In this document: piece by piece, positions 15,521-55,609 of the stretch
Layout of the letters: each line of letters opens with the position of its first letter
Position numbering within the stretch: position 1 is the first letter of the stretch
Assembly: GCF_034424315.1 (NCBI RefSeq)
Contig: NZ_CP139972.1
Coordinates: forward strand, 7,200,501 to 7,264,500
Length of the DNA: 64,000 nt
Direction: 5' to 3'
From: Chitinophaga sancti
Lineage (GTDB): Bacteria > Bacteroidota > Bacteroidia > Chitinophagales > Chitinophagaceae
Made by a program: the position numbers and the translations under genes
The notes under the pieces: generated by a model
What the model was told of the DNA's origin: nothing
The model's database searches: none
The model's input: only the letters and a program-made list of their open reading frames with translations

Positions 15521-15614
15521 TTCCAGCACTCATTTCATACCTATTTATGGAATGAATGTTAGTTATATACCATATCGATTTTTTATTAACCATTTAAAAC
15601 CAAAACCCTCAATT

Positions 15615-16775: not shown

Positions 16776-16810
16776 AAGAGCATTCGTTTAATCTATCAAC
16801 GTAAACCCTT

Positions 16811-19814: not shown

Positions 19815-19839
19815 GAAGAGCTTTACCCGGTTCTGATCA

Positions 19840-19869
19840 GGCCCTCTTTACAGGAGGGCCTTCTTTTTT
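19840..19869 (+). terminator. Terminator between sigma factor and FecR genes
   Basis: GGCCCTC (19840-19846) pairs perfectly with GAGGGCC (19854-19860) around TTTACAG, followed by TTCTTTTTT. The sigma gene ends at 19814. The fecR start 170 bp downstream therefore probably has its own promoter, or relies on readthrough. Confidence 0.85.
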
Positions 19870-21450: not shown

Positions 21451-21458
21451 ATGCTTAA
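21354..21458 (+). CDS. Possible 34-residue leader peptide overlapping susC
   Basis: An ATG frame at 21354 encodes MFCTAAGAAIALASQEPEWA and a basic tail ending KQFMTNA, with TAA at 21456-21458. Its end overlaps the susC ATG (21451) by 8 bases in another frame. Such an overlap is typical of translational coupling. I do not recognise the peptide, and chance cannot be excluded for a frame this short. If translated, it could gate ribosome entry to susC. Confidence 0.25.
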   Translation: MFCTAAGAAIALASQEPEWAFYFLKRTKQFMTNA

Positions 21459-24400
21459 AAAGGCGACCCTATTCCTTCAACTAACCGTGTTGGTGTCACT
21501 GTTATCCATACACGCTTCCGGTTTTGGTATACAGGATGCACTTGAAAAGAAAATATCCCTTGAGTTAAAAGACGTGTTGCTCAAAGAAGCATTGGACAAG
21601 ATCGGGAATCTCGCTGACGTATCATTTATATACGCCGGCAACTCTGTCACAGCCATCGACAAGGTCGATGTGAATGCTCATAATGAAAAGGTGGGAATGC
21701 TCCTCAATAGATTATTAAAACCTTATTCTCTGTCGTATACCGTATTGTATGATCGTATCATCATCCGCCAGGCAGAAAAGAAGATCAATTCAAGTGTCAT
21801 CAATACCGGCCATGCCGTGGCCTTCCGCACACAGGACATTAAAGGTGTGGTACTCACCATCAACAACGAACCACTGCCAGGTGTAGCAGTGATGATCAAA
21901 GGGACTACAAGGGGAACAACTACCAATGATAATGGTGTGTTCGAGTTAAAAAATATTCCGGCTAATGCCGTCCTCGTTATCAATCTTACCGGTTATGAAT
22001 CGCAGGAGATTTCACTGGCTACTATCAAAAGAGATCAGTTGACCGTTATACTGAAAGAAAAAACAACCAAGCTACAGGAGGTAGTTGTTACCGGATTTCA
22101 AAACATTGATAAAAATAAGTTTTCTGGTGCTGCTACCCGTATTAAAATGGAGGATGCGAAGATAGACGGTATGGCCGATGTAAGCCGCATGCTGGAAGGC
22201 CGCGTAGCCGGTGTGTCTATTCAAAACGTATCCAGCACATTCGGTTCTGCTCCTAAGATCCGTGTACGTGGCGCAACCTCTATTAATGGTGATAATAAAC
22301 CATTGTGGGTAGTAGACGGTGTTGTACTTGAAGATGTAGTGAACATCAGCAATGATCAGCTGTCCAGTGGAGACCCTACCACGCTGATGGGCTCCTCTGT
22401 TGCCGGTCTGAACCCGAACGATATAGAGAGCTTCGATATTCTGAAAGATGCTGCCGCTACAGCTTTGTATGGTGCCCGTGCTATGAATGGGGTAGTGGTG
22501 ATCACTACCAAAAAAGGTAGGGTAGGTAAACCATCTGTTGTATACAGCGGCAATTTCAGCACCCAGCTGAAACCCAACTATGGTAATTATAATATCATGA
22601 ATTCAGGCCAGCAAATGTCCGTACTGGCAGAACTGGAGCGCAAAGGCGCGCTGACTTCAGATATTCTTTCCCGTGCTGATAACGGGGTCTATGGAAAGAT
22701 GTATGAGCAGCTGAATGCAGATGAAAATGGCAACTTCCCATTAGAAAATACACCGGCGGCAAAGCGTAAGTTTTTGCTTAGATATGCTTCTGCCAATACT
22801 GACTGGTTCAACATCCTGTTCCGTACCAGTTTTATCCAGGAGCACTCCCTCAGTATTTCCTCCGGTACAGACAAGTCTCAGTCCTATTTCTCCACCAGCT
22901 TTTATCACGATAAAGGCTGGACAGTCGCCGACAGGGTAAGCCGGTACACACTCAACTTCCGGAACAACTATAAGTTGTCCGACAAGATCTCGGCCGGCTT
23001 CTCTGTCTTAGGCTCTGTACGTCAGCAGAAAGCACCCGGTGCCCTGAGCCGTACCAGCAATCCTGTAGAAGGGCAGTATGACCGTGATTTTGACATCAAC
23101 CCGTTCAGCTATGCACTGAACACCAGCCGTACGCTGACAGCCTTTGATGAAAGTGGAAAGAGAGAATACTTCAGAAGGAATTTTGCACCGTTCAACATTC
23201 TCACGGAAGTAGAAAATAATTACCTCAAAATAAACATGATGGACCTTCGCCTGCAGGGAGACTTTTCCTGGAAGCTCGCGAAGAACCTTCGCTATGAACT
23301 GGTAGGTGCACTGCGCTATGTAAAGTCATCACGCGAACACCAGATCACAGAGAACAGTAATATGGCGAATGCTTACCGTGCAAACGGGAATTCTACCATT
23401 GCAGAAAACAATAAGTTCCTCTACCGTGATCCGGACAATCCCGACGCATTGCCACAGGTGGTATTGCCTTATGGTGGTTTTTACAACCGTACGGAAGACC
23501 TGCTGGTCAACTACGATTTCCGTAACAGTTTGAACTACTCTCTCAATGTGGCAGACAGGCATAACCTGAATGTACTGGTAGGACAGCAGGTAAAGTATGC
23601 TGACAGGCAGAACTCGTCGAACACCGGTTATGGTTACCAGTATGAAAACGGTGGTGTAGCCTTCACTGATCCCCGTATCCTGAAGCAAACTATCGAGAGC
23701 AATTTTCCATACTATGGTATGAGCCAGGACTACGACCGCTTTGCAGCATTCTATGCCAGTGCCACATATGCTTTCAAAGAGAAGTATAACCTGACAGGTA
23801 CTACCCGCTATGATGGGTCGAACAAACTGGGTCGTTCTAAGAATGCACGCTGGTTACCTACCTGGAGTATATCGGGCAGCTGGAACATAGACAAAGAAGC
23901 ATTTATGAAACAGGCGTCGTGGGTAGATTATCTTGCTTTACGCGCCAGCTATGGTCTGACAGCCAGCATGGGCCCTGCTACCAACTCCAACATTGTTTAC
24001 CAGACTGTGAACACAAACCGCGGTCACCTCGATGAAGTAGAATCAGTTATTAAGATCGCACACCTGCAGAACGATGACCTTACCTGGGAGAAGATGTACA
24101 CCACTAACATTGGGCTGGATGGTACCTTCTTCGACAGACGCTTCAATTTCTCTATCGATGCATACAACAAAAAAAGCTTTGACCTGATCAGCCTGATCAA
24201 AACATCCGGTATAGGTGGTGAACTGTATAAGGCGGCTAACTATGCGGACATGACTTCAAAAGGGATCGAAGTAATGGTAGGCGGTGACATCGTGCGCACT
24301 AAAGACTGGGGCTGGAAAGCAAATGTGACCTTCGGTTACAATACCAACAAGATCACTAATGCAAAGAACATCCCTTCCATCTTTGACCTGGTAGTACCGG

Positions 24401-25086
24401 AAGGTGGTAATAAAGAAGGATATCCTGTCAGAGGCCTGTTCTCTATTAAATATGAAGGCCTGGATCCAAAGAATGGTTATCCCCGTTTCCTGAACCAGAG
24501 TGGTAATAGCAGCCCGGATGTATACCTGCAGGATCTGAATACCTCTCACCTGGTATATGAAGGCCCTGTAGATCCTCCTGCCAATGGTGGTCTGTCCAAT
24601 ACTTTCCGATACAAGAATTTATCCCTGAATGTATTTGTCACTTACCAGTGGGGCAACAAGATCAGGCTGTACCCTGCCTTTAAAACAGCGTACTCTGACC
24701 TGGATGCAATGCCCAAAGAGTTCTATGACCGTTGGGTAATGCCGGGCGAAGAGACCGTGACAAGAACACCTTCTATTCTCGATGCCCTGGAGCAAAATGT
24801 GATTTACGGCACTTATCCATATAACAACTATAACTATTCGACCGATAGAGTGGCCAAAGGAGATATGATCCGTTTGAAGACAGTATCCCTCACATATCAG
24901 CTGCCGCAACACCTGACCAGGAAAGCTGGTTTAAGTAACCTGTCTGTTACCGGTGCTGCCATCAATCCATGGCTGATTTATGCAGACAGTAAGCTGAGAG
25001 GACAGGATCCTGAATTCTTCAATACAGGAGGTGTAGCTCAACCTATTCAAAAGCAATTCACCCTTTCATTAAAAGTAGGACTCTAA
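21451..25086 (+). CDS. SusC/RagA TonB-linked outer-membrane protein with STN domain
   Basis: A 1211-residue TonB-dependent SusC-type transporter. Signal peptide (LFLQLTVLVSLLSIHASG), STN secretin/TonB short N-terminal domain (about 30-108, with ISLELKDVLLKEALDKI), carboxypeptidase-regulatory-like domain (about 128-205, GVVLTINNEPLPGVAVMIKG), plug (about 210-360, VVVTGFQNIDKNKFSGA and NPNDIESFDILKDAAATALYG), then the beta-barrel. The STN domain is the signalling module that contacts FecR, so this receptor should report substrate to the adjacent FecR/sigma pair. A SusD follows 16 bp downstream. The imported substrate cannot be told from the sequence; the following metallohydrolase lipoprotein hints at a peptide, glycopeptide or metal-linked ligand. 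Confidence 0.95.
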   Translation: MLKKATLFLQLTVLVSLLSIHASGFGIQDALEKKISLELKDVLLKEALDKIGNLADVSFIYAGNSVTAIDKVDVNAHNEKVGMLLNRLLKPYSLSYTVLYDRIIIRQAEKKINSSVINTGHAVAFRTQDIKGVVLTINNEPLPGVAVMIKGTTRGTTTNDNGVFELKNIPANAVLVINLTGYESQEISLATIKRDQLTVILKEKTTKLQEVVVTGFQNIDKNKFSGAATRIKMEDAKIDGMADVSRMLEGRVAGVSIQNVSSTFGSAPKIRVRGATSINGDNKPLWVVDGVVLEDVVNISNDQLSSGDPTTLMGSSVAGLNPNDIESFDILKDAAATALYGARAMNGVVVITTKKGRVGKPSVVYSGNFSTQLKPNYGNYNIMNSGQQMSVLAELERKGALTSDILSRADNGVYGKMYEQLNADENGNFPLENTPAAKRKFLLRYASANTDWFNILFRTSFIQEHSLSISSGTDKSQSYFSTSFYHDKGWTVADRVSRYTLNFRNNYKLSDKISAGFSVLGSVRQQKAPGALSRTSNPVEGQYDRDFDINPFSYALNTSRTLTAFDESGKREYFRRNFAPFNILTEVENNYLKINMMDLRLQGDFSWKLAKNLRYELVGALRYVKSSREHQITENSNMANAYRANGNSTIAENNKFLYRDPDNPDALPQVVLPYGGFYNRTEDLLVNYDFRNSLNYSLNVADRHNLNVLVGQQVKYADRQNSSNTGYGYQYENGGVAFTDPRILKQTIESNFPYYGMSQDYDRFAAFYASATYAFKEKYNLTGTTRYDGSNKLGRSKNARWLPTWSISGSWNIDKEAFMKQASWVDYLALRASYGLTASMGPATNSNIVYQTVNTNRGHLDEVESVIKIAHLQNDDLTWEKMYTTNIGLDGTFFDRRFNFSIDAYNKKSFDLISLIKTSGIGGELYKAANYADMTSKGIEVMVGGDIVRTKDWGWKANVTFGYNTNKITNAKNIPSIFDLVVPEGGNKEGYPVRGLFSIKYEGLDPKNGYPRFLNQSGNSSPDVYLQDLNTSHLVYEGPVDPPANGGLSNTFRYKNLSLNVFVTYQWGNKIRLYPAFKTAYSDLDAMPKEFYDRWVMPGEETVTRTPSILDALEQNVIYGTYPYNNYNYSTDRVAKGDMIRLKTVSLTYQLPQHLTRKAGLSNLSVTGAAINPWLIYADSKLRGQDPEFFNTGGVAQPIQKQFTLSLKVGL

Positions 25087-25102
25087 AAAGAAGAAGACTA
25101 AC

Positions 25103-26554
25103 ATGAAAAATTTTACACGGGTATCATTGATCAGTCTGGGCCTGCTTACTATGAGTAGCTGCAGTAAATATCTGGACCAATCTCCTGATAGTACCTGGAC
25201 AGAATTAAATACACCGCAAAAGGTATCCCAGTTATTAGGTACAGCTTATCCGCAGGCTAACTATATCGTGTTTGCTGAAGCGATGTCTGACAACGTAACA
25301 GACAAAGGTGCCGGGGTTATAGAAAGGACAAATGAAGATCCATATTTCTTCAATGATGTAAACGACATTAAAGAAGATTCTCCTGAGTGGTACTGGACAG
25401 CATGCTACAAAGCGATTGCCGCCTGTAACAATGCACTCAAGGCGTGTGAGAACGCGCCTGATTCTTCCCGGTATCGGGCACAAAAGGGAGAAGCGCTGGT
25501 AGCAAGAGCATATGCACACTTTATGCTGGTGAACTTCTTCTCGAAATTTTACAATGCTGCCACAGCCGCTACTGATCCGGGTATCCCATATGTAATAGAA
25601 CCTGAGACAGTAGTATTCGAGCAATACAACCGTGGTACGGTTGCTGAAGTGTATGATAAAATTGAAAAAGATCTGCTGGCTGGCATTCCCCTGATCAACG
25701 ACGAAAAATACGAGGTTCCTCATTACCACTTCAATAAATCAGCGGCTCACGCCTTTGCCACCAGGTTCTACCTGTTTAAGAAAGATTATGCAAAGGTGGT
25801 GGAGTTTGCCAACAAAACATTCCCAAACAATGACCTGGCCAGTTACATGCGTCCATGGAATACGACCTACAGAACAATGACCCCGTCTATGCTGTGGGAA
25901 ACTTATGCCAGGGCTACTGAAAAGTGCAATCTGCTCCTCGTGGAAACACAGTCCACTTACGGCAGAAATCTGGCACGATACCGTTTTGGCCTGGACAATA
26001 ACATTGAAACTTCCGTACTGTCGAAGAATGTGGCAGGTGGTAATTACTCCTATCCAATATACTACTATGGTACCCGCGATTACTTTGTACCAAAGCTGAC
26101 AGAATACTTTGTAAAGGCATCTGTGAACGCGACAATCGGAGATCCTTATGTAATGGTACCCCTGTTTACTACAGAAGAAGTTTTGTTCAACAGGGCCGAG
26201 GCGAACCTTTACCTGGGCAATACTGCTGATGTGCTCTCCGATCTGAACCTGTTTGCCAGCAAGCGTATCGTGAATTATGATGCCGGCAGGCATGCGGTAA
26301 GCGTTGCCAAAGCACAGACGTTTTACAACACATCAAATAGTAACAATGCACTCCTGAATACCATTCTTGATTTTAAGAGAGCAGAGTTTTTACAGGAAGG
26401 GCATCGCTGGTTTGATTTACAACGGTATGGCGTCACCATCACCCACTACGACATCTATGGTAATAAGACAACTGTAGCTGCTGATGATAACCGCCGTGTA
26501 TTGCAGTTGCCATTGTCTGCCCAGACAGCAGGTCTCGCTTTAAATCCAAGATAA
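25103..26554 (+). CDS. SusD/RagB family nutrient-binding lipoprotein
   Basis: A 483-residue surface lipoprotein that lids the SusC barrel. The lipobox is LTMSSC (Cys20), followed by SKYLDQSPDSTWTELNTP, typical of SusD starts. The N-terminal TPR-like part has ACYKAIAACNNALKACE and AQKGEALVARAYAHFMLVNFF; the C-terminal part has ILDFKRAEFLQEGHRWFDLQRYG. Length is normal for the family. It lies 16 bp after susC and 22 bp before the zinc-metallohydrolase gene, so co-transcription is near certain. Confidence 0.94.
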   Translation: MKNFTRVSLISLGLLTMSSCSKYLDQSPDSTWTELNTPQKVSQLLGTAYPQANYIVFAEAMSDNVTDKGAGVIERTNEDPYFFNDVNDIKEDSPEWYWTACYKAIAACNNALKACENAPDSSRYRAQKGEALVARAYAHFMLVNFFSKFYNAATAATDPGIPYVIEPETVVFEQYNRGTVAEVYDKIEKDLLAGIPLINDEKYEVPHYHFNKSAAHAFATRFYLFKKDYAKVVEFANKTFPNNDLASYMRPWNTTYRTMTPSMLWETYARATEKCNLLLVETQSTYGRNLARYRFGLDNNIETSVLSKNVAGGNYSYPIYYYGTRDYFVPKLTEYFVKASVNATIGDPYVMVPLFTTEEVLFNRAEANLYLGNTADVLSDLNLFASKRIVNYDAGRHAVSVAKAQTFYNTSNSNNALLNTILDFKRAEFLQEGHRWFDLQRYGVTITHYDIYGNKTTVAADDNRRVLQLPLSAQTAGLALNPR

Positions 26555-26576
26555 CAACCAAAAAATATTTGCATAT

Positions 26577-27488
26577 ATGAAACCGTTAAACGCATTCTTT
26601 TTCTTTCTGCTGGTGATCGCACTGGCGGCTTGTTCGAAAGAAAACGATGATCTAAGTGGTGTGCAAGATATCCCCGGCCTGGGTGGCGACACCTGGGTCG
26701 AGGATTCTTTAGACAAATGGCTGCATGATTCCCTCACCGTGCCTTACAACATAGAGGTGAAATACAAATGGGATCAGTTTGAATTTGATGTGACAAAAAC
26801 TTTAGTGCCACCCAAAGAAGAAGTGGTGGTTCCTGCTATGCAGGCAATCAGGAAGGTTTGGATAGATAATTATATCAGATATGCCGGAGAACTTTTCTTC
26901 AAAAAGTATTCTCCCAAATTTTTCATCCTCTCAGGTAGTGCCAGCTGGAATGACAATGGTACCATCACCCTGGGTACTGCCGAAGGAGGCCGCAAGGTGG
27001 TCATGTACCTGCTGAACGAATTCCGTACCAAAGGAATGGATGGCTACCGGCTGGGTGATACCGCCAACGTGAAACAGATCTTTCACGTAATAGAGCACGA
27101 ATTCGGGCACATCCTGCACCAGAATGTTATGTATCCAAGCGAGTTCAAAAAGATCAGTGTAGGGCTTTATACGGCCAACTGGAATAATATCTACGATTCC
27201 GATGCGCACCAGGATGGCTTTGTAACCCCCTATGCCATGAGCAGCGAAAATGAGGATTTCGTAGAAATGATCGCCACCATGCTGATTGAAGGGAAGGAGG
27301 GATTTGACAGGATTGTAAACAGTGTGCAGAACAGGACCAGTGACAACGGCACGACCCAGGCACAGGCAGTAGCTGCCCTGCGGCAAAAAGAAGCGATGGT
27401 CGTGAACTATTACAAGTCCGCTTACGACGTGGATTTCTACGCCTTGCAAAAAGCCACCAGGAATAGTATTAACGCACTTTTTTATTGA
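26577..27488 (+). CDS. Substrate import-associated zinc metallohydrolase lipoprotein
   Basis: A 303-residue lipoprotein with lipobox ALAAC (Cys19). The zinc motif is HEFGH (His174, Glu175, His178) inside HVIEHEFGHILHQN; an acidic third ligand may lie in SENEDFVEMIATMLIEG. The pattern fits the family described as substrate import-associated zinc metallohydrolase lipoproteins (TIGR04549), found beside SusC/SusD pairs in Bacteroidota. It is expected on the outer membrane, processing a ligand before or during import; whether it is a peptidase is inferred from the motif. It follows susD by 22 bp and is followed by the DUF4302-like lipoprotein by 24 bp, the usual companion of this family. Confidence 0.88.
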   Translation: MKPLNAFFFFLLVIALAACSKENDDLSGVQDIPGLGGDTWVEDSLDKWLHDSLTVPYNIEVKYKWDQFEFDVTKTLVPPKEEVVVPAMQAIRKVWIDNYIRYAGELFFKKYSPKFFILSGSASWNDNGTITLGTAEGGRKVVMYLLNEFRTKGMDGYRLGDTANVKQIFHVIEHEFGHILHQNVMYPSEFKKISVGLYTANWNNIYDSDAHQDGFVTPYAMSSENEDFVEMIATMLIEGKEGFDRIVNSVQNRTSDNGTTQAQAVAALRQKEAMVVNYYKSAYDVDFYALQKATRNSINALFY

Positions 27489-27512
27489 TGCGCACCAAAA
27501 TCTAAATGCAAT

Positions 27513-28793
27513 ATGAGAACAAATTTATCTCTGTATATATTACTTACTGCATTATTATTTGCCGCCTGTAAAAAGGAGGATGATAACGTATTTAAAAAAT
27601 CGCCCGATGAAAGGCTCAATGAGGTACTTAGTACCTATAGTACTGCACTTACCAGCGCCCCTTACGGATGGAAGGCACTGGTATATCCCTCGGGTTTTCC
27701 TACCCTGCCATTTAGTTTCTATTTTAAGTTCGATACTGCGAACCGGGTACGAATGTATTCGGACTGGGATACAAGCACACTGACCAATGCCCGTGAAAGT
27801 AGTTATCGGCTAAAAGCCCTGCAGCAACCTTGTTTATTATTTGATACCTACAGTTACATTCATATACTCTGCGATCCCGATGCCAGCGTTAACGGCGGAT
27901 ATTATGGCAGCGGTCTGCTGTCTGATTTCGAGTTTATACTGGATGGTATGAGCAGCAATGGTGATACTATTAAACTTACAGGACGTCAGCATGCCAGCAA
28001 GGCCGTGCTCGTCAAAGCTACCTCCAAAGAGGCACAGGATTATTACGATAGAAAACGGAACTGGGACTTTAACTATTCTTCCCGGTTTCTTACTTATTTT
28101 AAAAAGCTGCACACTGGTAAAGGAGATTATGATATCTACATTAACCACAGCTTCAAACGCGTACGTATTGTAAACGCCAACGTAAAATTCAGTGCCGGTT
28201 TTTACCTGACACCCACAGGTGTCGCATTTGATAAACCCTTTACAGACGCCGGAGAAACCATTTATGGATTTGATGATGTCATCTGGTCAGAAAACAATCA
28301 GCTCATGAGCCTCAAGGTCAATGGCAGAGCTGCAACCATCAACAGTGATAAGAAGCCTTATATCGTGGACAGTACTGCCGGCAGCCGCTGGTACAATACC
28401 GCCCTGAATGCGGCCACCTACTTTATCGCGCCCAATGGCATTCATGTAGATGGCCAGGATGATTATTACAATTTAGCATCTGTTCCGGGTTTTACCTACC
28501 TGTTTTACTATCCGAATTTCGGACAGAGCGGGTATGACTTCAATGGACTAATGGAGAAGTCCTACTATGGGCCTGCCTATAAAGCGAAGTTCAGTACTGC
28601 AGGGATTACCACCTTCACCTATGGAGGCACTTTCTACACCATCCCTGACTACAGTACCACCGCTATATCTAACATCGTCACCAAATTCACAGAAAGCGCC
28701 GGTTACTACTTTGTACAAACCAGTGACAACAATACCTATGATATGGTGAATGTAAAAGATGCCCGTAGCTGGATCAGCTGGCAATTGTACTAA
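27513..28793 (+). CDS. DUF4302-like surface lipoprotein
   Basis: A 426-residue lipoprotein with lipobox LLFAAC (Cys19), followed by KKEDDNVFKKSPDERLNEVLSTY and PYGWKALVYPS, which match what I know of the DUF4302 family. The rest is beta-rich with many aromatic residues. The biochemical role of the family is unknown. It occurs with SusC/SusD and zinc-metallohydrolase lipoproteins, so it is probably an accessory binding protein on the cell surface. It lies 35 bp before the giant cargo gene with no terminator between. Confidence 0.75.
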   Translation: MRTNLSLYILLTALLFAACKKEDDNVFKKSPDERLNEVLSTYSTALTSAPYGWKALVYPSGFPTLPFSFYFKFDTANRVRMYSDWDTSTLTNARESSYRLKALQQPCLLFDTYSYIHILCDPDASVNGGYYGSGLLSDFEFILDGMSSNGDTIKLTGRQHASKAVLVKATSKEAQDYYDRKRNWDFNYSSRFLTYFKKLHTGKGDYDIYINHSFKRVRIVNANVKFSAGFYLTPTGVAFDKPFTDAGETIYGFDDVIWSENNQLMSLKVNGRAATINSDKKPYIVDSTAGSRWYNTALNAATYFIAPNGIHVDGQDDYYNLASVPGFTYLFYYPNFGQSGYDFNGLMEKSYYGPAYKAKFSTAGITTFTYGGTFYTIPDYSTTAISNIVTKFTESAGYYFVQTSDNNTYDMVNVKDARSWISWQLY

Positions 28794-28828
28794 TGCATTA
28801 ACCCTAAATAATAGAAAAAGAGAACCAT

Positions 28829-37756: not shown

Positions 37757-37776
37757 GCCTAATAAATAGTTATCCC

Positions 37777-40700
37777 ATGAAGTATCCTGTTTTAAATAGT
37801 ACTGCTTGCTATTGCTCTCCACCTAAGGGTGGGGGCAACAGCGGCAGCTTACAACGGCCCCTGTGGCTCGCATTGCTCTCGTTGTTCATGATGGCGGTAT
37901 CAGGTCATGCACAAAATCTTTCCAACAAGGGAACGGAATTCTGGACAGCATATGGACACCATCAATTCATGGAACCAGGACAGCCCAACTCGCAGGAAAT
38001 GGTATTGTACCTGAGTGCAGAGCAACCGGCAGTCGTAACAGTGTCAGTAGACAGCCTCGGCTGGAGCCGCACTTATTCCATTCCTGCCAATACGGTGATT
38101 GCCACTGATTATATCCCTAAAGGAGGTACTTATGATGCGCGTTTGTATTCCGTGCCGCCAGGCTTTGGTGGTACAGGTGGTGAAGGTGTGTTCAGGTACA
38201 AAGGTATTCATATTGTGAGCGATGTACCCATTGTTGCGTATGGCCATATATTTGGTTCAGCTTCATCAGGTGCCACCACGCTGTTGCCTGTCAATACCTG
38301 GGGGTATTATTATGTATCGCTGAATAGTGAGCAGAATTATGGTTCAGATTGTTTTTCCTGGATGTATGTGATAGCGAGTCACGATAGCACGGTCGTTGAA
38401 ATAACACCTTCTGCGCTGACCCGTAATGGACGCCCTGCCAATGTGCCTTTCACAGTGACATTGAATAAAGGACAGATCTATCAGGTAGTAGGTACTACGA
38501 ATGGCAGCTCAGGCCCTGAATTGACGGGTACCAAAGTTCGCTCCATTGCAAATCCGGGCGACACGTGCTATCCTATTGCCGTATTCTCTGGTAGTAGCCG
38601 TACAGCTATTACCTGTACACCTGGAGGTAGCGGCAGTGGGGATAACAATATGCAGCAGGTATTTCCATCGCAGGCATGGGGTAAGCGTTATCTGCTGGCA
38701 CCTACCAGTACTGATAACAGTCCTTCTACCTTCATGACCAATATTTATAAGGTAGTGGTGAAAGACCCCGCCACAGTCGTGAAGAGAAATGGGGTTGTAT
38801 TGACGGGGTTGATAGGTAATAGTTACTACCGCTTTACAAGTGGTACAGCAGATTATATAGAATCAGATAAACCGGTATTGGTTGCACAATTTATGTCCTC
38901 TTCAGGCTCATGCCCCAATACAGGAGGTCTGGGTGATCCTGAAATGGTGTACCTCAGCCCTATAGAACAGGCTATTAAAAATATCGGTTTCTATAGGAAT
39001 AACAGGGAGTCCATTAACGTAAATTACCTTACCCTGATCATCCCAACTTTAGGCGTGCAATCCTTGAAAATAGACGGGCAGAACAATGCGTGGAATTATA
39101 CTTATGCACATCCCGCCCTGCCTGGTTATTCAGTAGTCATCAAGCGTTGGTCTGCAGCCCAGGCACAATGTCTCGTATCGAGTGACTCGGCTTTTACAGC
39201 AGTTACCTATGGGTTAGGTTCTGTAGAGAGTTATGGCTACAATGCAGGTACACTCATCAACAACCTGAATGCAGTTGGTACTATTCACAACCAGTATGAT
39301 ACTGCCAAATCAAAGAATGATTTTACATGCACGAATACACCTGTAGAATTGTCTGTATTACTGGCATATCATCCCACAAAGATGGTGTGGCAAATCAGTC
39401 AGCTGGGTAGTGCGATCACACCTAACGCCGATGTTGTGATAACGAACCCGGTAAGTACAGGTCAGGAAATTGTAAATGGTGTGCCTTATTTCAAATACAC
39501 CCTTCCTGGCACCTACCAGTTCAGTAATACAGGCACTTACAATATCACAATTACAAACACCAACCCTGAGATTGAAAAATGTGATCATACCGAACAGGTG
39601 AAAATCTCTGTGACCGTTAAGAAGAAACCTTTTGCAAAGTTTACTTATACACATACTGGTTGTACAAAAGACTCTGTTTACTTTACAGGAGACACCAGCG
39701 CGAGCGGATATGATGTTAATCGCTGGAAGTGGACATTCGCAGGACCTGTGTTGGATAGTGGTCAGCATGTAACACATGCATTTGCTCCCGGCCAGCAGAA
39801 TATTAAGCTCAGTGTGATCACGGAAGAAGGTTGTGTGGCTGATACGACCGCATCTATTACTATCTATCCAAGACCAACAGCCAATTTCAATACCAATGTG
39901 CAGAGTGTATGTGAAGGCAGTAATGTGACCCTCACGGATCAGTCAACCTTTGGTGGCAGTGGACCTCTCGTAGGCTGGTACTGGGATGAAGGCAATGGAA
40001 CAACGAATAACAACACCACTGCTGCGGCACAAACAGCGCATTACGATGCATATGGTACTTATAATATCAGGCATGTTGTAAAGGTGAGTGACCTTTGTGT
40101 GAGCGATACTGCCACAAAAACAGTTACGGTGTATGCAAAACCGGTGCCTTCCTTTACCTATCCTGACAATTGTCTGGCTGTAGATGGTATTGTACAATTC
40201 ACCAGTACTACAACAGTACCGGATGCACAGACGCTGAGCTCTTACACCTGGGATTTCGGAGATGCTGCTGCTACACCTGCTAATCCAAATACAAGTACAG
40301 CCGCTAATCCACAACATACATATACTTCCTTTGGTACTTATACGATTAAATATAGTGCCACCACTGCCAATGGTTGTACCAAAGACACAACGGTGACAGC
40401 CATCTTTAAGCTGAAACCAAAACTCAATTTTACAAAACTCGATTCTGTCTGCGTAAACCAGAAAGGTACGCTCGATATCGCAAAAGCTGCGGTGACGAAT
40501 GGGGTAACAGGTACAGGTGTGTATAAAGGTCCGGGAACAAATGCTGCCGGGGTGTTCAGTCCAACAACCGCAGGAGCTGGCACACACACTATCTGGTATG
40601 TATTTACAACTAAGAGTGGTTGTATAGATTCTATTTCTGCCACTATCAAAGTAAATCCAAAACCAGCTGCGGCCTTCACAGCCAATGATGTATGCCTCGG

Positions 40701-41934
40701 CGCGCCTGTGGCGATCAGTGACCAGTCAACGATTTCGGCGGGTACAATCAGTTCCTGGAGCTGGAGCTTTGGTGATGGCAACAGCGAAACGCATACCAAT
40801 AATACAACCTTCAACAAAACATATACTGCCTGGAAGACCTACACTGTGAAACTGGTAGCGGTCAGCGATAATGGTTGCACGAGCGATACCGCTACCAACA
40901 CAGTGGCTGTACACCCGAACCCGACTACCGACTATACACTGCCTGCGCATATCTGTATGCCGGAGGGTATTGCTGCATTCACCAACAACACTTCTACACC
41001 TGATAGATCGGCGATGACTTATCAGTGGAATTTTGGTGACGGCACAGCCAACAGCACTACATCTTCTCCTACGCATGTGTATCAGCAGGCAGGCAGCTAT
41101 ACGGTGATGCTGACCGCTACTACCAAATTTGGTTGTACAAGCAGTAAAGACAAGGTGCTGAGTGCCTTCTTTACACAGCCGGTGGCTAAGTTCTCCGTAT
41201 CGCCTGATACGCTTTGCCAGGGTACAGAAAGTGTATTCACTGATCAGAGTACAGATGCCAGCAATAACATTACTACCTGGAGCTGGACATTCGGTGATGG
41301 CAGTAGTTCTACCAGCCGCAATCCGGTGAAGGAATACACTACGCCGGGAGAATACACAGTTCAGCTTACCGTCACCAACGGTGCAGGTTGTGTATCCACT
41401 ACGGCCAGTGACCAGGTAGTGGTCTACCTGCAACCCGTAATCGATGCAGGCGATGACTTTGTCGTACCACAGGGTACCCTCATTCAATTCAATGCGACTG
41501 CTAACGATAGTACCCAACTGGTATTCCGCTGGTCACCGGGCGAAGGGCTGTCATCTGCCAATGTGCTGAACCCATGGCTGGTGGCAATGGCAGACCAGGT
41601 ATACACCCTCACTGCAATCGGCAAAGGTAGTTGTGGTGCACAGGACAAGATGACTGTAAAAGTGCTGAAACCGGTGAAAATACCGAATGCGTTTTCTCCT
41701 AACGGAGACGGCATGAACGACCGCTGGGTGATTTCCAATCTCGCAGATTACCCGGGAGCCAGCATCGAAGTATTTAACAGGTATGGACAAAGGGTATACT
41801 ATTCTGTGGGCTACGAAACACCATGGGATGGTATGTGGAAAGGCAAGCTGCTACCGCTGGCTACATACTACTACATCATCAAACTGAAAAACGGGTTCGC
41901 ACCTCTCACCGGGTACGTTACAATACTTCAATAA
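37777..41934 (+). CDS. IgGFc-binding-like/multi-PKD adhesin with type-B T9SS sorting domain
   Basis: A 1385-residue secreted protein. After a signal segment (LWLALLSLFMMAVSGHAQ) comes an IgGFc-binding-like region (about 45-470, GTEFWTAYGHHQFM and VPIVAYGHIFGSASSGATTLLPV). It is clearly paralogous to residues 2080-2500 of the preceding giant protein. It is followed by about six PKD-type repeats (phrases such as YTWDFGD, WSWSFGDG, YQWNFGDG and WSWTFGDG) and a CHU_C type-B domain (about 1300-1385, IPNAFSPNGDGMNDRW). PKD repeats usually act as spacers on surface proteins. It starts 20 bp after the giant gene and is followed 17 bp on by a PorP/SprF gene, its probable dedicated partner. The ligand is unknown; adhesion is inferred. 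Confidence 0.85.
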   Translation: MKYPVLNSTACYCSPPKGGGNSGSLQRPLWLALLSLFMMAVSGHAQNLSNKGTEFWTAYGHHQFMEPGQPNSQEMVLYLSAEQPAVVTVSVDSLGWSRTYSIPANTVIATDYIPKGGTYDARLYSVPPGFGGTGGEGVFRYKGIHIVSDVPIVAYGHIFGSASSGATTLLPVNTWGYYYVSLNSEQNYGSDCFSWMYVIASHDSTVVEITPSALTRNGRPANVPFTVTLNKGQIYQVVGTTNGSSGPELTGTKVRSIANPGDTCYPIAVFSGSSRTAITCTPGGSGSGDNNMQQVFPSQAWGKRYLLAPTSTDNSPSTFMTNIYKVVVKDPATVVKRNGVVLTGLIGNSYYRFTSGTADYIESDKPVLVAQFMSSSGSCPNTGGLGDPEMVYLSPIEQAIKNIGFYRNNRESINVNYLTLIIPTLGVQSLKIDGQNNAWNYTYAHPALPGYSVVIKRWSAAQAQCLVSSDSAFTAVTYGLGSVESYGYNAGTLINNLNAVGTIHNQYDTAKSKNDFTCTNTPVELSVLLAYHPTKMVWQISQLGSAITPNADVVITNPVSTGQEIVNGVPYFKYTLPGTYQFSNTGTYNITITNTNPEIEKCDHTEQVKISVTVKKKPFAKFTYTHTGCTKDSVYFTGDTSASGYDVNRWKWTFAGPVLDSGQHVTHAFAPGQQNIKLSVITEEGCVADTTASITIYPRPTANFNTNVQSVCEGSNVTLTDQSTFGGSGPLVGWYWDEGNGTTNNNTTAAAQTAHYDAYGTYNIRHVVKVSDLCVSDTATKTVTVYAKPVPSFTYPDNCLAVDGIVQFTSTTTVPDAQTLSSYTWDFGDAAATPANPNTSTAANPQHTYTSFGTYTIKYSATTANGCTKDTTVTAIFKLKPKLNFTKLDSVCVNQKGTLDIAKAAVTNGVTGTGVYKGPGTNAAGVFSPTTAGAGTHTIWYVFTTKSGCIDSISATIKVNPKPAAAFTANDVCLGAPVAISDQSTISAGTISSWSWSFGDGNSETHTNNTTFNKTYTAWKTYTVKLVAVSDNGCTSDTATNTVAVHPNPTTDYTLPAHICMPEGIAAFTNNTSTPDRSAMTYQWNFGDGTANSTTSSPTHVYQQAGSYTVMLTATTKFGCTSSKDKVLSAFFTQPVAKFSVSPDTLCQGTESVFTDQSTDASNNITTWSWTFGDGSSSTSRNPVKEYTTPGEYTVQLTVTNGAGCVSTTASDQVVVYLQPVIDAGDDFVVPQGTLIQFNATANDSTQLVFRWSPGEGLSSANVLNPWLVAMADQVYTLTAIGKGSCGAQDKMTVKVLKPVKIPNAFSPNGDGMNDRWVISNLADYPGASIEVFNRYGQRVYYSVGYETPWDGMWKGKLLPLATYYYIIKLKNGFAPLTGYVTILQ

Positions 41935-41951
41935 GCAAATATTAACTCGCA

Positions 41952-42959
41952 ATGAAAAATATCATCACCTTCATCCTGCTTTGCCCGCTATTGTTTGTAA
42001 TGGCTGATAAAGCGAATGCGCAATCTGATCCGCATTTTTCCCAGTACTATGTGTATCCCTCCTGGCTGAACCCCGCACTGACCGGTGCTTTTGATGGCGA
42101 TTACAGGGTGTCAGCTATTTATCGTACCCAGTGGGGAAATATCAGCAGCCCCTTTGCTACCTATGGCGTAGCAGCTGATATTACCACTAATAAGCAATTC
42201 AATGTTGGCGCCAGTGTATTGAATCAATCCGCTGGTGATGGTGGATATAATTATACAACCGCTTATGCCAGCGCTTCTTATACAGGTGTGAAGTTCGGCG
42301 CTAACCAGACTCACAGGCTGGTATTCGGTATCCAGGCGGGTTTGATCCAGCGCCGTTTCGATGCTTCTAAACTCACCTTTGGTGATCAGTGGAACCCGGT
42401 GACTGGTTATAATCCAGGTACACCCAGTGCTGAGGTATTGGGCAGAACATCTGCCAGTTCATTCGATGCCGGTGCCGGTGTATTGTACTACGATGCAGAA
42501 CCGGGCAAGAAATACAACATCTTTGGCGGTTTCGGTGTCAGCCATCTCACACGTCCTACCGATCAGTTCAGTGCCAGTGGAGACGCGCGTTTCCCTATGC
42601 GCTTTACCGGTCATGCTGGTGTGAAAATAGCGATCAATGAAACCTTTAGTATCACACCGAATTTATTGTACCTGCACCAGGGTAATGCAGAAGAGAAAAT
42701 GATCGGTGCTTACGGGCAGATGTATGTAACACCGACTGTTGATTTCCTGCTGGGTGTGAACTACCGTTTCAAAGATGCAATTGCCCCTCATGCAGGCTTT
42801 ACCTATGGCGGCTTTACCCTTGGTGCCAGCTATGATATCAATACTTCCGATCTGGGCAAAATAGCCAGGGGCTCTAACAGCTTCGAAATATCTCTCACCT
42901 GGATAGGCAGAAAACTCTTTAAAACACCTGAAGTAGAATTTGTGTGCCCACGTCTCTAA
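41952..42959 (+). CDS. PorP/SprF family type IX secretion outer-membrane protein (second copy)
   Basis: A 335-residue predicted outer-membrane beta-barrel. The signal peptide ends DKANAQ and is followed by HFSQYYVYPSWLNPALTGAFDGDYRVSAIYRTQWG, the PorP/SprF hallmark region. It is divergent from the copies at 5380 and 44749, consistent with a different cargo. It lies 17 bp after the PKD adhesin gene and 16 bp before the OmpA/PD40 gene, inside a tight operon. Confidence 0.9.
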   Translation: MKNIITFILLCPLLFVMADKANAQSDPHFSQYYVYPSWLNPALTGAFDGDYRVSAIYRTQWGNISSPFATYGVAADITTNKQFNVGASVLNQSAGDGGYNYTTAYASASYTGVKFGANQTHRLVFGIQAGLIQRRFDASKLTFGDQWNPVTGYNPGTPSAEVLGRTSASSFDAGAGVLYYDAEPGKKYNIFGGFGVSHLTRPTDQFSASGDARFPMRFTGHAGVKIAINETFSITPNLLYLHQGNAEEKMIGAYGQMYVTPTVDFLLGVNYRFKDAIAPHAGFTYGGFTLGASYDINTSDLGKIARGSNSFEISLTWIGRKLFKTPEVEFVCPRL

Positions 42960-42975
42960 CATCTAATAAAGAACC

Positions 42976-44742
42976 ATGAAAAAGATCTTATTCACAGCAG
43001 CACTGTTAGGTGCAGTATTGGCAGGCAAAGCACAGTTTGCTTACAATTACCTCAAGGCTGCTGACTATTATTTCAGGAACGCGGACTATAATTCTGCTGC
43101 TCAGTATTATGAAAAATACCTGGCAGGTAACCGCTCCATCGTCAGCAATGCTGTATATAAACCCTACAATACACAACAGGTAGCAAGCAAAAAGCAATTG
43201 CCTGTAAGTTCTGAACACCAGGCTATCTATAAGCTGGCAGAGAGTTACCGCTTACTGCATGACTATAGCAAAGCAGTACCCTGGTATGCAGAAGCAATGG
43301 AGTTTGATAAATCAGAATATCCATTAGCACCTTATTACTATGCCGTGTCATTGCGTGCATTAAGTCGCTATGACCTGGCAGAAAAAGCATTCGCTTACTT
43401 CCTCGATACTTATCAGACTGCCGATAAATTCCGTGATGATGCAAAGCGTGAACAGGAGAACCTGCATTTCATTGTGGTACAGCTGGCGCGTCCTGATCTC
43501 TCCCTGTATACAATAGAGAAAGGCAATACCAACCTGAATCCTGAAGGCGCGAATTATGCACCTGCATGGCTTGGTGATACGCTGTTGTTATTTACCTCTA
43601 CAAGACCTGATAATGGTGCTGCAAAGAATCATGTGTTTACCAACAGGGTGTATGGCGTGAAGTTCAATGGTGCTGTGCCGGACAGTATTTCCAGGTTTGC
43701 ATTGCCGCAGCCTAAGAATGAAGAGCAGGGTGTGATCAGCATTAGCCCCGATGGCAATACACTCTTCCTCACAAGGTGGATAAAAAACAAAAAAGCCGCC
43801 ATCTACAGTAGCCATAAAAATGGCGATAACTGGACTGAGCCTGTGCTCCTTGATTCTATTGTGAACGCAGCCGGCTATAGTGCACAGCAACCATTTGTAA
43901 CAGCAGATGGTAAGCGCCTGTTATACGCCAGTGACAGGCCGGGTGGAGAAGGTGGACTGGACATATGGGAAGCACAGCTGAATGGTGATGGTACACCTTT
44001 CTTCACAAAGAACTTAGGTCCTGTGGTGAATACTGCTTCCAATGAACAGGCACCTTATTACCATGCAGCATCGGGTTTATTAGTCTTCTCTACAGATGGC
44101 AGGGTAGGCATGGGTGGTTATGATTTCTTCTATACAAAAGACAGCGCAGGCAACTATACTACTCCTGTTAATTTCGGTTACCCGGTGAACTCTGTGAAGG
44201 ATGATATCTACTTCAGCAGTAAGGGTAGCAAAGACAATATCCTGGAAGGAGTGTGGTTATCATCTGACCGTTCAGCCAGTTGTTGCCTGGAATTGTTTAC
44301 CCTGAACAAGCGTGTGCCACCTCCGCCTCCGCCACCACCACCAGTACCTGAAACCCCTGTAGCTGTGGCACCTCCGCCAGCTGAGGTACCAGTTGTACTG
44401 GACAATGTATACTACGATTTCAGCCAGTCATACCTGCAACCGGCTTCTTACCCTGCATTGGATAAACTGGTCGCCATGCTGCAGGCACATCCTGAAGTGA
44501 AAATAGAGCTGAGCGCACATACAGATAGCAAAGGTTCGGATGCGCTGAACCAGAAACTGTCTGACGCCCGTGCAAAGAGTTGCGTGGATTACCTCGTGAG
44601 CAAGGGAGTTGCAGCCGAACGTCTTACCTGGAAGGGATATGCGGCAACCATGCCGTTAGCACCTAATACCAATGCTGATGGATCTGATAATCCGGAAGGC
44701 AGGGCCAGGAACAGAAGGACGGAATTCAAAGTGATTAAATAG
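42976..44742 (+). CDS. TPR/PD40/OmpA envelope protein (PorE-like, second copy)
   Basis: A 588-residue protein with the same plan as that at 6412. Signal peptide (ends LAGKAQ), TPR-like helices (about 20-150, YYFRNADYNSAAQYYEKYL and LAESYRLLHDYSKAVPWY), PD40 propeller blades (about 190-440, ISPDGNTLFLTRW and ADGKRLLYASDRPGGEGGLDIW), a polyproline linker (nine prolines near 450), and an OmpA domain (about 472-588, HTDSKGSDALNQKLSDARAK and GRARNRRTEF). It should bind peptidoglycan and the outer-membrane complex. It lies between two PorP/SprF genes (16 and 6 bp gaps), so one OmpA-type anchor may serve two barrels. It is shorter than the operon A paralogue because the linker is much reduced. Confidence 0.88.
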   Translation: MKKILFTAALLGAVLAGKAQFAYNYLKAADYYFRNADYNSAAQYYEKYLAGNRSIVSNAVYKPYNTQQVASKKQLPVSSEHQAIYKLAESYRLLHDYSKAVPWYAEAMEFDKSEYPLAPYYYAVSLRALSRYDLAEKAFAYFLDTYQTADKFRDDAKREQENLHFIVVQLARPDLSLYTIEKGNTNLNPEGANYAPAWLGDTLLLFTSTRPDNGAAKNHVFTNRVYGVKFNGAVPDSISRFALPQPKNEEQGVISISPDGNTLFLTRWIKNKKAAIYSSHKNGDNWTEPVLLDSIVNAAGYSAQQPFVTADGKRLLYASDRPGGEGGLDIWEAQLNGDGTPFFTKNLGPVVNTASNEQAPYYHAASGLLVFSTDGRVGMGGYDFFYTKDSAGNYTTPVNFGYPVNSVKDDIYFSSKGSKDNILEGVWLSSDRSASCCLELFTLNKRVPPPPPPPPPVPETPVAVAPPPAEVPVVLDNVYYDFSQSYLQPASYPALDKLVAMLQAHPEVKIELSAHTDSKGSDALNQKLSDARAKSCVDYLVSKGVAAERLTWKGYAATMPLAPNTNADGSDNPEGRARNRRTEFKVIK

Positions 44743-44748
44743 TAAACT

Positions 44749-45774
44749 ATGAAAAGACTCTCACTGCTGTTGTTGCTGCTGGCGGGTTCCGCCAGCAGCA
44801 ACGCACAGCAACAACCGCACTACACCCAGTATATTCTCAATACGTTTATCATCAACCCCGCTGTGGCAGGTATTGAAAACTACTGGGATGTAAAGGCGAG
44901 CCATCGCCATCAGTGGGCTGGATTGAATGGTGCGCCGGTTACTTCATACCTCACCATACACGGCCCTTTACGCAAGAGCGATTATCCTGAAGCGGGTATC
45001 ACCGGTTTGACACCTCCGGGAGAGAATCCAAGGGGAAGAGCTTACTGGCAGCAGTATACCACACCTCCTGCACATGCAGGTGTAGGATTGACAATCCTGA
45101 ATGATAAGACTGGTCCGCTGAACAGGTTTTCTATCACGGGTACTTATGCACACCATATTCCTATTTCAGCCCGTACCAGTGTGAGTGCAGGAATTTCAAT
45201 AGGTATGCAGCAGATGTCGCTGGATGCATCGAAACTGGATTTTGAACAAGCGGGTGACCCGGTGATAGCAGCCAGTACACTGTTGAATAAGTGGCGGCCG
45301 GAAGTGAATGCAGGGTTGATGTTGTACAGCAGTAGTTATTACATCAGTGCGGCGGTGCAGAATATTATTCCGCAGGGAATTGCTTATGACAACGGAAAAG
45401 TGGTAGGCGATTCTTTGTACAGGGGTAAACTGGTACCGCATTTATTTCTCTCAGGTGGGTATCGTGCTTTTATCAATGAAGATCTGAGCGTGTTGCCTTC
45501 TGTGATGGTGAGAATGATTACGGCGGCACCTGTGAGTTTTGATCTGAATACAAAGTTTCAGTATAGAGACCGGATGTGGGTAGGGGCTTCATACCGCATA
45601 CAGGATGGGTTTGCGGCTATGCTTGGAGTGAATATCAATTCAACAATCAATATCGGGTATTCGTATGATTATACTACATCATCATTGAATACGGTGAGTA
45701 AAGGAACGCATGAAGTATTGATTGGGTTCTTAATAGGGAACAGGTATGGAGATCTGTGTCCGCGCAATTTTTAA
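44749..45774 (+). CDS. PorP/SprF family type IX secretion outer-membrane protein (third copy)
   Basis: A 341-residue predicted beta-barrel. Signal peptide ends SSNAQQ, followed by HYTQYILNTFIINPAVAGIENYWDV and HRHQWAGLNGAP, the PorP/SprF signature. The family-typical GLTILNDKTGPLNRFSITGTYAH is present. It begins 6 bp after the OmpA/PD40 gene and ends the tight gene run. Two type-B cargos and two PorP/SprF proteins occur in this unit, so a one-to-one match is possible, with this copy serving either the giant or the PKD protein. Confidence 0.9.
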   Translation: MKRLSLLLLLLAGSASSNAQQQPHYTQYILNTFIINPAVAGIENYWDVKASHRHQWAGLNGAPVTSYLTIHGPLRKSDYPEAGITGLTPPGENPRGRAYWQQYTTPPAHAGVGLTILNDKTGPLNRFSITGTYAHHIPISARTSVSAGISIGMQQMSLDASKLDFEQAGDPVIAASTLLNKWRPEVNAGLMLYSSSYYISAAVQNIIPQGIAYDNGKVVGDSLYRGKLVPHLFLSGGYRAFINEDLSVLPSVMVRMITAAPVSFDLNTKFQYRDRMWVGASYRIQDGFAAMLGVNINSTINIGYSYDYTTSSLNTVSKGTHEVLIGFLIGNRYGDLCPRNF

Positions 45775-45857: not shown

Positions 45858-46391
45858 ATGAAAAAGGTTTTCGGTTATTTATTCGTTGCATGTATGTTCT
45901 CCCTTGCCATTGGAATGACTTCTTGTAAGAAAGGTGATGCAGGTCCTGTAGGTCCGAAGGGTGAGAAAGGTGATACAGGTGTAGCGGGTAATGCAGGTAT
46001 CATTTATTCCGCCTGGAAAGATGCAGCTTTTACCCTTGCATCTGACAATGCAACTTACTTCGTAAATGTAGATGCTCCAAAGATCACTGCTGCTATCCTG
46101 AACAAAGGTGATGTAAAAGTATATACCCAATACTATACAAGTACTGGTGGACTGGTAGTAATGCCATTACCATACTTCAACGGCAATTACATTATCAACG
46201 TTAATCTCTTTGAAGGTGGATTCGAAATCTACAGCAATGCAGACTTCAGCACATCTACTGACGATAATGGAAAAAAATCTTTCCAATACAGATATGTGAT
46301 CATTCCGGGTGGCCAGGCTGCTGCACGCAAGGCTGGGATCGACTGGAACAATTACGAACAGGTAAAAGCTTACCTGCATCTTAAGAACTAA
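45858..46391 (+). CDS. Small lipoprotein with collagen-like triplets
   Basis: A 177-residue lipoprotein with lipobox GMTSC (Cys23), directly followed by eight Gly-X-Y triplets (GDAGPVGPKGEKGDTGVAG) and a C-terminal beta-rich domain (about 50-177, IIYSAWKDAAFT). Short collagen-like stretches after a lipid anchor are frequent in Bacteroidota surface proteins and probably act as a stiff spacer or trimerising element. It lies 83 bp after the third PorP/SprF gene with no terminator visible between, and a terminator follows it. Function unknown. Confidence 0.75.
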   Translation: MKKVFGYLFVACMFSLAIGMTSCKKGDAGPVGPKGEKGDTGVAGNAGIIYSAWKDAAFTLASDNATYFVNVDAPKITAAILNKGDVKVYTQYYTSTGGLVVMPLPYFNGNYIINVNLFEGGFEIYSNADFSTSTDDNGKKSFQYRYVIIPGGQAAARKAGIDWNNYEQVKAYLHLKN

Positions 46392-46430: not shown

Positions 46431-46460
46431 GGCTGCTTTATCGAGGGCGGCCAATTTTTT
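46431..46460 (+). terminator. Terminator after the collagen-like lipoprotein gene
   Basis: GGCTGC (46431-46436) pairs with GCGGCC (46447-46452), with one G-T pair and a 10-base loop, followed by AATTTTTT. The next gene starts 20 bp later. Confidence 0.6.
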
Positions 46461-51927: not shown

Positions 51928-52026
51928 ATAACTTTTTTTAAAAAAGAGAAGGCGCTCTAAGGGGATGTGTCATAAGTAAAATGAAACCCCCGAGATTCGC
52001 TTAAAAAATTCTCTCTCCATCAGGAG

Positions 52027-52059
52027 GGGCTGCCGCAAAACTTTGCGACAGCCCTTTTT
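52027..52059 (+). terminator. Terminator between fucosidase gene and second SusC
   Basis: GGGCTGCCGCAAA (52027-52039) pairs with TTTGCGACAGCCC (52042-52054) over 12 of 13 bp with a very short loop, followed by TTTTT. It ends the fucosidase transcript, so susC downstream has its own promoter. Confidence 0.9.
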
Positions 52060-52195: not shown

Positions 52196-52207
52196 CCCCC
52201 GATTCGC

Positions 52208-55596: not shown

Positions 55597-55609
55597 TCTT
55601 AAAAGTACA

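Follow-up and report, generated by a model that had tools for sequence, protein, structure and literature searches.

The 64,000-nucleotide stretch analysed here (hereafter the window; Chitinophaga sancti, contig NZ_CP139972.1, positions 7,200,501 to 7,264,500) is part of an 8.42-Mb single-contig genome and carries, at positions 21451-46391, a unit of ten genes that all lie on the forward strand (Table 1). Four of them encode a SusC/SusD importer with two lipoproteins, five encode giant surface proteins (cargos) of the type IX secretion system (T9SS) together with their shuttles and anchor, and the last one encodes a collagen-like protein. An earlier, sequence-only reading of this DNA had described nine same-strand open reading frames (ORFs) separated by only 6-35 bp and no visible terminator; the ORF list agrees with it, the gaps being 16, 22, 24, 35, 20, 17, 16 and 6 bp, and the hairpin scan of the window found no forward-strand terminator-like site within these eight gaps. 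The extent of the unit has to be revised, as the run continues into the tenth, collagen-like gene and then meets a hairpin. Judged by gene order and gene ends, the unit is a real, conserved and composite operon, each half of which is of a known kind.

Table 1. Features of the ten-gene unit, followed by those of its surroundings, in window coordinates.
Feature	Position	Strand	Basis and remarks
SusC-type TonB-dependent transporter, weak STN domain	21451..25086	+	TIGR04056 637 bits, cut-off 368; counterpart of FCWusC, Cpin_2191
SusD-type lipoprotein (SusD-like_3)	25103..26554	+	Pfam; counterpart of FCWusD, Cpin_2192
Peptidase_Mx1 / LP_HExxH_w_tonB lipoprotein (TIGR04549)	26577..27488	+	Pfam, NCBIfam; HEFGH at residue 174
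DUF4302 lipoprotein	27513..28793	+	Pfam
Cargo 1, 2975 aa: N-terminal domain, Ig-like/beta-helix stretches, IgGFc_binding, PKD, Ig_7, CHU_C (type-B T9SS signal)	28829..37756	+	Pfam, NCBIfam
Cargo 2, 1385 aa: IgGFc_binding, PKD repeats, CHU_C	37777..41934	+	Pfam, NCBIfam
PorP/SprF-type shuttle 1 (PorP1), C-tail ...FVCPRL	41952..42959	+	PorP_SprF; TIGR03519
PorE-like anchor: TPR-like N-terminus (sub-threshold), PD40, OmpA	42976..44742	+	Pfam; T9SS_PorE 254 bits, cut-off 600
PorP/SprF-type shuttle 2 (PorP2), C-tail ...DLCPRNF	44749..45774	+	PorP_SprF; TIGR03519
Collagen-like (Gly-X-Y) lipoprotein-like protein, 177 aa, last gene of the unit	45858..46391	+	Short collagen stretch, below Pfam cut-off
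Terminator-like hairpin closing the unit	46431..46452	+	Hairpin scan
ECF sigma factor 2 (ECF2)	46481..47068	+	Pfam; 3' of the closing hairpin
FecR anti-sigma factor	20040..21038	+	Pfam; counterpart of Cpin_2190
Terminator-like hairpin and T-run 3' of ECF1, before FecR	19839..19861	+	Hairpin scan; position rarely conserved (1/34)
ECF sigma factor 1 (ECF1)	19224..19814	+	Pfam; counterpart of Cpin_2189
GH16 + CBM6, T9SS tail not detected (outside the core)	15552..16775	+	Pfam; counterpart of Cpin_2187
Beta/gamma-crystallin-like + CBM6 + type-A T9SS tail (outside the core)	13679..15520	+	Pfam, gene order compared with PMC10449523; counterpart of Cpin_2185
GH18 x2 + CBM5/12 + type-A T9SS tail chitinase (outside the core)	9183..13292	+	Pfam; counterpart of Cpin_2184

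The domains attributed to the nine genes in the sequence-only reading were supported by Pfam or NCBIfam in each case, except that SusC matches the STN domain only below threshold (24.6 bits, against a Pfam cut-off of 28.4). TIGR04056, SusD-like_3, TIGR04549 and DUF4302 fall on consecutive genes, i.e. the import half is a SusCD/LP_HExxH/DUF4302 cassette. Its third protein (Mx1), which the sequence-only reading had trim a captured polymer, belongs to a family of putative zinc peptidases, so that this proposal is not supported as it stood; the N-terminal part of the DUF4302 protein is predicted to be calycin-like, the fold comparison being weak. In the other half both cargos end in a CHU_C domain (TIGR04131, 47 and 69.7 bits, cut-off 35), as expected of type-B substrates, and both contain an IgGFc_binding domain (PF17517) that had been overlooked; the model of this domain in cargo 2 has a mean pLDDT (predicted local distance difference test) of 91.6. 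The two shuttle genes downstream of the cargos reach 189 and 270 bits with TIGR03519 (cut-off 90.55), and this agrees with the requirement of type-B substrates for a cognate PorP/SprF shuttle (PMC12618676). The anchor combines PD40 and OmpA domains and is termed PorE-like only, because the NCBIfam cut-off for T9SS_PorE is not reached.

The neighbourhood, whose absence from all related genomes had been named as a refuting case, is present and conserved in them. A DUF4302 search gave matches in 35 of 59 genomes, all of the same genus and the own genome included, and 40 of the about 70 loci listed were mapped with tblastn. The coupled form, in which the import half is joined to the T9SS module, was found in 24 of the 40, each time with the ten genes in order on one strand; in several of these a short additional ORF separates the cargos, and in one (L045) cargo 2 was matched over 67% only. 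Eight further loci have the collagen-like gene directly 3' of DUF4302 (seven with the whole SusCD-Mx1 part, one cut by a contig end), and the last eight have neither the T9SS module nor the collagen-like gene. Coupled loci occur in at least 20 of 35 other genomes of the genus. When named genomes were scanned with cargo 1, the best 80 matches gave 64 loci, and the SusCD half stands beside cargo 1 in 46 of them, again always with ten genes in order on one strand and with the HExxH motif of Mx1 retained (46/46); Chitinophaga silvisoli (L155) is the nearest named relative among these loci. The other 18 carry the cargo without an adjacent SusCD half, and several of them are truncated at the end of a contig. 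FecR and ECF2 go together: of the 46 named coupled loci, 34 have both genes and 12 have neither. This division into FecR-bearing and FecR-less loci is seen in eight of nine gene trees, the exception being the collagen-like gene. The idea that everything stands under one sigma/FecR switch could therefore not be upheld: FecR is missing from these 12 coupled loci, and in the window a hairpin, found at this position in 1 of 34 loci, lies between ECF1 and FecR.

In a phylum sample the picture differs. DUF4302 was found in 22 of its 395 genomes and the SusCD-Mx1-DUF4302 run occurs across Bacteroidota, whereas PorP, CHU_C and IgGFc were absent from the stretch examined 3' of DUF4302 in all 25 mapped phylum-sample loci outside the own genome, three of them from the same family; one (L203) has a lone 279-aa OmpA-domain gene. 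The N-terminal part of cargo 1 has matches in 51 of the 395 genomes, mostly to partial stretches of repeats. Two side observations belong to the coupled loci. In L042, L046, L047, L049-L051, L058 and L059 the extra ORF between cargo 1 and cargo 2 is about 113-118 aa long, and most of these weakly resemble T9SS-tail proteins. [Flexibacter] sp. ATCC 35208 has the locus twice (L152, L161), in opposite orientation on one contig and with matching coordinates, which is either an inverted duplicate or an assembly artefact.

The distribution of terminator-like hairpins, sought up to 84 nt from the stop codon, follows the limits of the ten-gene unit. Of the 46 coupled loci, 29 have a hairpin 3' of the collagen-like gene, where 0.4 would be expected from shuffled sequence, whereas the nine earlier gene ends have 2 in 414 (OmpA 2/46, each of the other eight genes 0/46). 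A stricter scan left none of the internal ends (0/414) and 6 of 34 after the collagen-like gene. Hairpins after ECF1 and ECF2 were found in 1 and 5 of 34 named loci, respectively. In 24 loci with the collagen-like gene only, 12 have a hairpin after this gene and none after DUF4302, and in loci that have neither the module nor the collagen-like gene the hairpin is found after DUF4302 in 8 of 21. Within the window alone the frequency of hairpins is close to that of shuffled sequence (10 vs 11.6 and 14 vs 10.1 expected), so it is the conservation across loci that carries the argument. We regard this distribution as the best evidence that transcription may pass through the 28793-28829 junction, i.e. 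from the import half into cargo 1.

It is useful to compare the genes upstream of the unit with the published fungal cell wall utilization locus (FCWUL) of Chitinophaga pinensis, Cpin_2184-2192, a polysaccharide utilization locus (PUL). The order 5' of SusC is GH18x2-CBM5 chitinase, beta/gamma-crystallin protein, GH16-CBM6, a reprolysin-like T9SS protein, ECF (extracytoplasmic function) sigma factor and FecR; accordingly, the window has in common with C. pinensis the succession GH18x2-CBM5, beta/gamma-crystallin protein, GH16-CBM6, ECF sigma, anti-sigma, SusC and SusD. As far as domain order tells, the SusCD half matches FCWusCD. In one respect the two loci differ, as the C. pinensis locus has a GH18-CBM6 protein (Cpin_2186) without a counterpart in the window, and because this counterpart was not found we call the locus FCWUL-like and not identical. 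A second difference is the boundary: the C. pinensis locus was published with its carbohydrate-active enzymes (CAZymes) and was drawn as ending at SusD (PMC10449523), whereas here the run goes on for eight further genes, two of which encode giant T9SS proteins. In openly licensed papers searched for the tags Cpin_2192 to Cpin_2197, only Cpin_2192 is mentioned. Its product, the SusD protein FCWusD, bound beta-1,3-linked glucans as a recombinant protein and, in the binding results given in PMC10449523, neither cellulose nor pustulan nor the non-glucans tested. On fungal necromass, Cpin_2184, 2186 and 2187 rank among the 50 most strongly induced genes, the named CAZymes rising by more than 5 log2 units (PMC11497827).

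The linkage of the two parts is seen in other genomes as well. In C. pinensis strain YS-16 (L131) the GH18 gene is located 7.1 kb upstream of ECF1 and all ten core genes come next, cargo 1 having a single-piece match over 51% only. Among ten named coupled genomes, eight have the GH18 gene 6.1-8.5 kb upstream of ECF1 and two have it elsewhere (contigs were matched by coordinates, and the match of L103 is partial), and the end of the GH16 gene lies 10.6-10.8 kb before the DUF4302 gene in the own genome and eight relatives. In the subclade of the window, then, the ten-gene core is, by this gene order, joined to a fungal-wall locus whose published limit is SusD. Two neighbouring runs may be mentioned here. 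Just 5' of the chitinase gene, at 3543-8748, the window has a second type-B cargo (DUF11 and CHU_C) with a PorP/SprF and a PorE-like OmpA gene, and at 50536-57079 an alpha-L-fucosidase with an F5/8 domain is followed by a further SusC/SusD pair, a separate and likely glycan locus.

The T9SS genes appear to occupy a fixed position, or slot, flanked by DUF4302 and the collagen-like gene, because loci without the module often keep SusCD-Mx1-DUF4302 with the collagen-like gene directly next to it. The slot can be followed beyond the genus, where 40 of the about 87 family loci listed were mapped. A giant relative of cargo 1 follows DUF4302 in eight of them, and the remaining module was read in three of these eight (L247 to PorP2, L254 and L257 to the collagen-like gene). 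Four are PorP-first, with the collagen-like gene seen in two, one has PorP2 alone and looks like a remnant (L238), 15 have the collagen-like gene directly and 12 have neither. Niastella populi has two loci of different composition. In the first, SusC-SusD-Mx1-DUF4302 is followed by a 4110-aa relative of cargo 1, cargo 2, PorP1, OmpA, PorP2, a further type-B cargo and, by profile, a collagen-like ORF; in the second, DUF4302 is followed by PorP1-OmpA-PorP2, a 714-aa protein, two other type-B cargos and the collagen-like gene. A 714-737-aa protein directly after PorP2, without a match to the profiles used, was also noted in PorP-first loci of the Niastella type (L224/L231, L233-L236). The joining of the SusCD/Mx1/DUF4302 set to a complete cargo, shuttle and anchor module, as proposed from the sequence alone, is thus conserved and recurs with swapped cargos; it had been called undescribed, and neither this union, nor the slot, nor the cargo swapping was found in the openly licensed literature searched.

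The history of the slot does not seem to be simple. In early trees the coupled loci formed one clade beside the collagen-only loci (a contig-end locus, L070, was left out), and the coupled cargo-1 proteins fell on one side of a branch with a support of 0.997. A single acquisition in Chitinophaga was rejected after the Niastella loci were included, as the T9SS state needs three changes on the SusD+Mx1+DUF4302 tree, which was built from 50 chosen loci of the 112 in a larger tree. One clade for all T9SS-bearing loci was likewise rejected (approximately unbiased test, p-AU 8.2e-12, for a group defined with knowledge of the earlier trees); in NiaA, the upstream half clusters with the other Niastella type. 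As far as these trees tell, the history is not a single simple gain, and either one gain with losses or several gains would account for it. It seems to us about an even chance that these loci exemplify a class of 'gripping' utilization operons in Chitinophagaceae, in which the slot of a SusCD operon between DUF4302 and the collagen-like lipoprotein takes interchangeable T9SS adhesin-shuttle-anchor sets, so that attachment to prey is co-expressed with, and perhaps physically coupled to, import; the slot would have gained or lost its content on more than one occasion, with exchange of cargos.

The genes present, their order and spacing, the place of the hairpins, the conservation and the slot are all observed. 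They are best explained, with a probability that we put somewhat above even, though well short of certainty, by 21451-46391 forming a single conserved operon of ten genes in which nutrient import across the outer membrane is coupled with surface adhesion. The STN-bearing SusC, together with FecR and ECF1, would sense a glycan and raise transcription. The two giant type-B proteins would leave the cell through the T9SS, be collected by PorP1 and PorP2 and be tied to the peptidoglycan by the PorE-like protein, so anchored that they could hold the fungal wall (chitin, beta-1,3-glucan or mannoprotein) at the cell surface. The secreted GH18 and GH16 enzymes encoded upstream may free fragments of beta-glucan, which SusCD would import, and wall protein may be cleaved by Mx1.

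Several points speak against this coupled operon or against its fungal target. A scan for promoter motifs gave next to nothing, the region upstream of SusC included. Hairpins are less clear in the Niastella-type loci (DUF4302 0/15, Mx1 1/15, PorP1 3/9, collagen-like gene 2/7). Gene trees of the unit correlate at 0.72-0.97, and this follows from shared descent alone. Ten genomes with a stand-alone cargo module were searched, and three of them have DUF4302 elsewhere and seven gave no DUF4302 match, so that the module needs no such importer. With respect to the fungal wall, a GH18-CBM6 second chitinase is not among the four genes at 9183-18892, the match to the Cpin_ tags is based on domain order and on strain YS-16, and fungal CAZymes are linked in only 8 of 20 other coupled genomes, so that the ten-gene core has a broader distribution than the fungal-wall locus. 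Two further points, the cysteine of the shuttles and an iron capture system, belong to the alternatives to which we now turn.

The first alternative, which concerns the display step alone and is compatible with the other steps, is that the giant proteins are gliding adhesins, with PorP1 and PorP2 linked by their C-tail cysteine to the GldK track and cells moving over the fungal surface while they feed. The C-tail Cys-Pro-Arg motif is found in 55 of 55 PorP1 and 53 of 53 PorP2 matches in named loci, and an invariant cysteine on each shuttle could mean attachment to a gliding track; moreover, the SprF protein of Flavobacterium johnsoniae forms a disulfide to GldK through its C-tail cysteine (PMC12635249) and GldK is encoded in the own genome, for which reason a moving display retains some probability. 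The SprB/SprF gliding system resembles the present one in its very large T9SS adhesin and in a PorP/SprF carrier with a C-tail cysteine (PMC12635249). It differs in that SprF has a twin Cys-X-Cys, absent from the C-tails of PorP1 and PorP2, which have the single cysteine of Cys-Pro-Arg instead, and in that a PorE-like gene is present here and the genes are joined to a PUL. The cysteine is also not special, because 10 of the 15 PorP/SprF paralogs of the genome (L179-L193) have a short C-tail with a single Cys followed by Pro (seven of the ten with Cys-Pro-Arg), while four others have a similar end without cysteine. As a separate observation, such a cysteine may mark those PorP shuttles that are capable of a disulfide to GldK.

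The type-B operons of F. johnsoniae offer the closer parallel for the display step. Five of them combine a PorE homolog, a type-B substrate and an SprF-like shuttle, and one such substrate is displayed statically, whereas dynamic substrates are described, in the passages of PMC12618676 that deal with them, in operons without a PorE-like gene. These operons, e.g. Fjoh_3952-3951-3950 (PMC12618676), likewise have a CHU_C cargo, a PorP/SprF shuttle and a PorE-like OmpA anchor in one strand run, but here cargo and shuttle are each present twice, and the whole module is set within a SusCD operon. By analogy, two cargos with two shuttles and a single PorE-like anchor are in keeping with this plan. 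Since a PorE-like gene is present, we judge static anchoring to be a good deal likelier than gliding, and we consider the gliding alternative unlikely, if far from negligible.

The second alternative is that the core mainly scavenges protein or iron: Mx1 would act on captured protein or glycoprotein, SusCD would take up peptide or iron, and the glucan locus would be a local addition. The putative peptidase nature of Mx1 and the occurrence of SusCD-Mx1-DUF4302 across Bacteroidota agree with this, and relatives of the import half have diverse roles. The iron capture system (ICS) of Capnocytophaga canimorsus uses serotransferrin as an iron source, and its Riemerella homologues (SusC, RagB and a substrate import-associated zinc metallohydrolase) are all induced by iron depletion (PMC5429918). 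Compared by description, these systems likewise have consecutive SusC-like, SusD-like and, in Riemerella, zinc metallohydrolase genes; they differ in taking iron from serotransferrin, and a T9SS module is not named in section 3.6 of that paper. In Bacteroides thetaiotaomicron, where BT_3958-3961 likewise includes SusC, SusD and DUF4302 (BT3961), BT_3958/3959 respond to mucin O-glycans (PMC5238430), and vesicles are enriched in BT_3960, which is termed a putative calpain-like protease (PMC6222051); from gene position, BT_3960 would be the HExxH lipoprotein, i.e. a relative of Mx1. Loci of this type differ from the present one by lacking the T9SS genes after DUF4302, as in the phylum sample above. 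Going by these systems, the import half can serve several ends, so that protein or iron must be taken seriously as what the core targets. Against it stands the glucan binding of FCWusD from the matching C. pinensis locus, for which the data in PMC10449523 give no other polysaccharide tested as a ligand, and expression of BT3961 falls under iron depletion (PMC10434189), so that the two papers on iron depletion point in opposite directions, down in PMC10434189 and up in PMC5429918. On balance we find such a role doubtful, and somewhat more so than gliding.

That the two halves are merely neighbours, with the T9SS module read from a promoter within DUF4302 and serving another purpose, for instance adhesion in general or biofilm formation, is improbable: although the module can stand alone, as in the 18 named loci without an adjacent SusCD half and in the seven genomes without a DUF4302 match, none of the coupled loci examined departs from the gene order, hairpins are missing at the DUF4302/cargo-1 junction (0/46) and present after the collagen-like gene, and the slot is reused with other cargos in other genera.

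The coupling of import and adhesion would matter mainly for the way in which such loci are understood. PULs are usually described in terms of sensing, cutting and importing, and the grip on solid prey is usually left out. If the coupled operon is real in this sense, a glucan importer is joined to two giant anchored surface proteins, attachment comes under the same switch as feeding, and the published boundary of the fungal cell wall locus would have to be redrawn. The swapping of cargos in one slot is at the same time a natural experiment on what adhesins recognize. In soil bacteria related to Chitinophaga, grip and feeding may thus be switched on together, as a single long gene cluster appears to encode both an import system linked to the digestion of the fungal wall and two giant surface proteins that could hold the prey.

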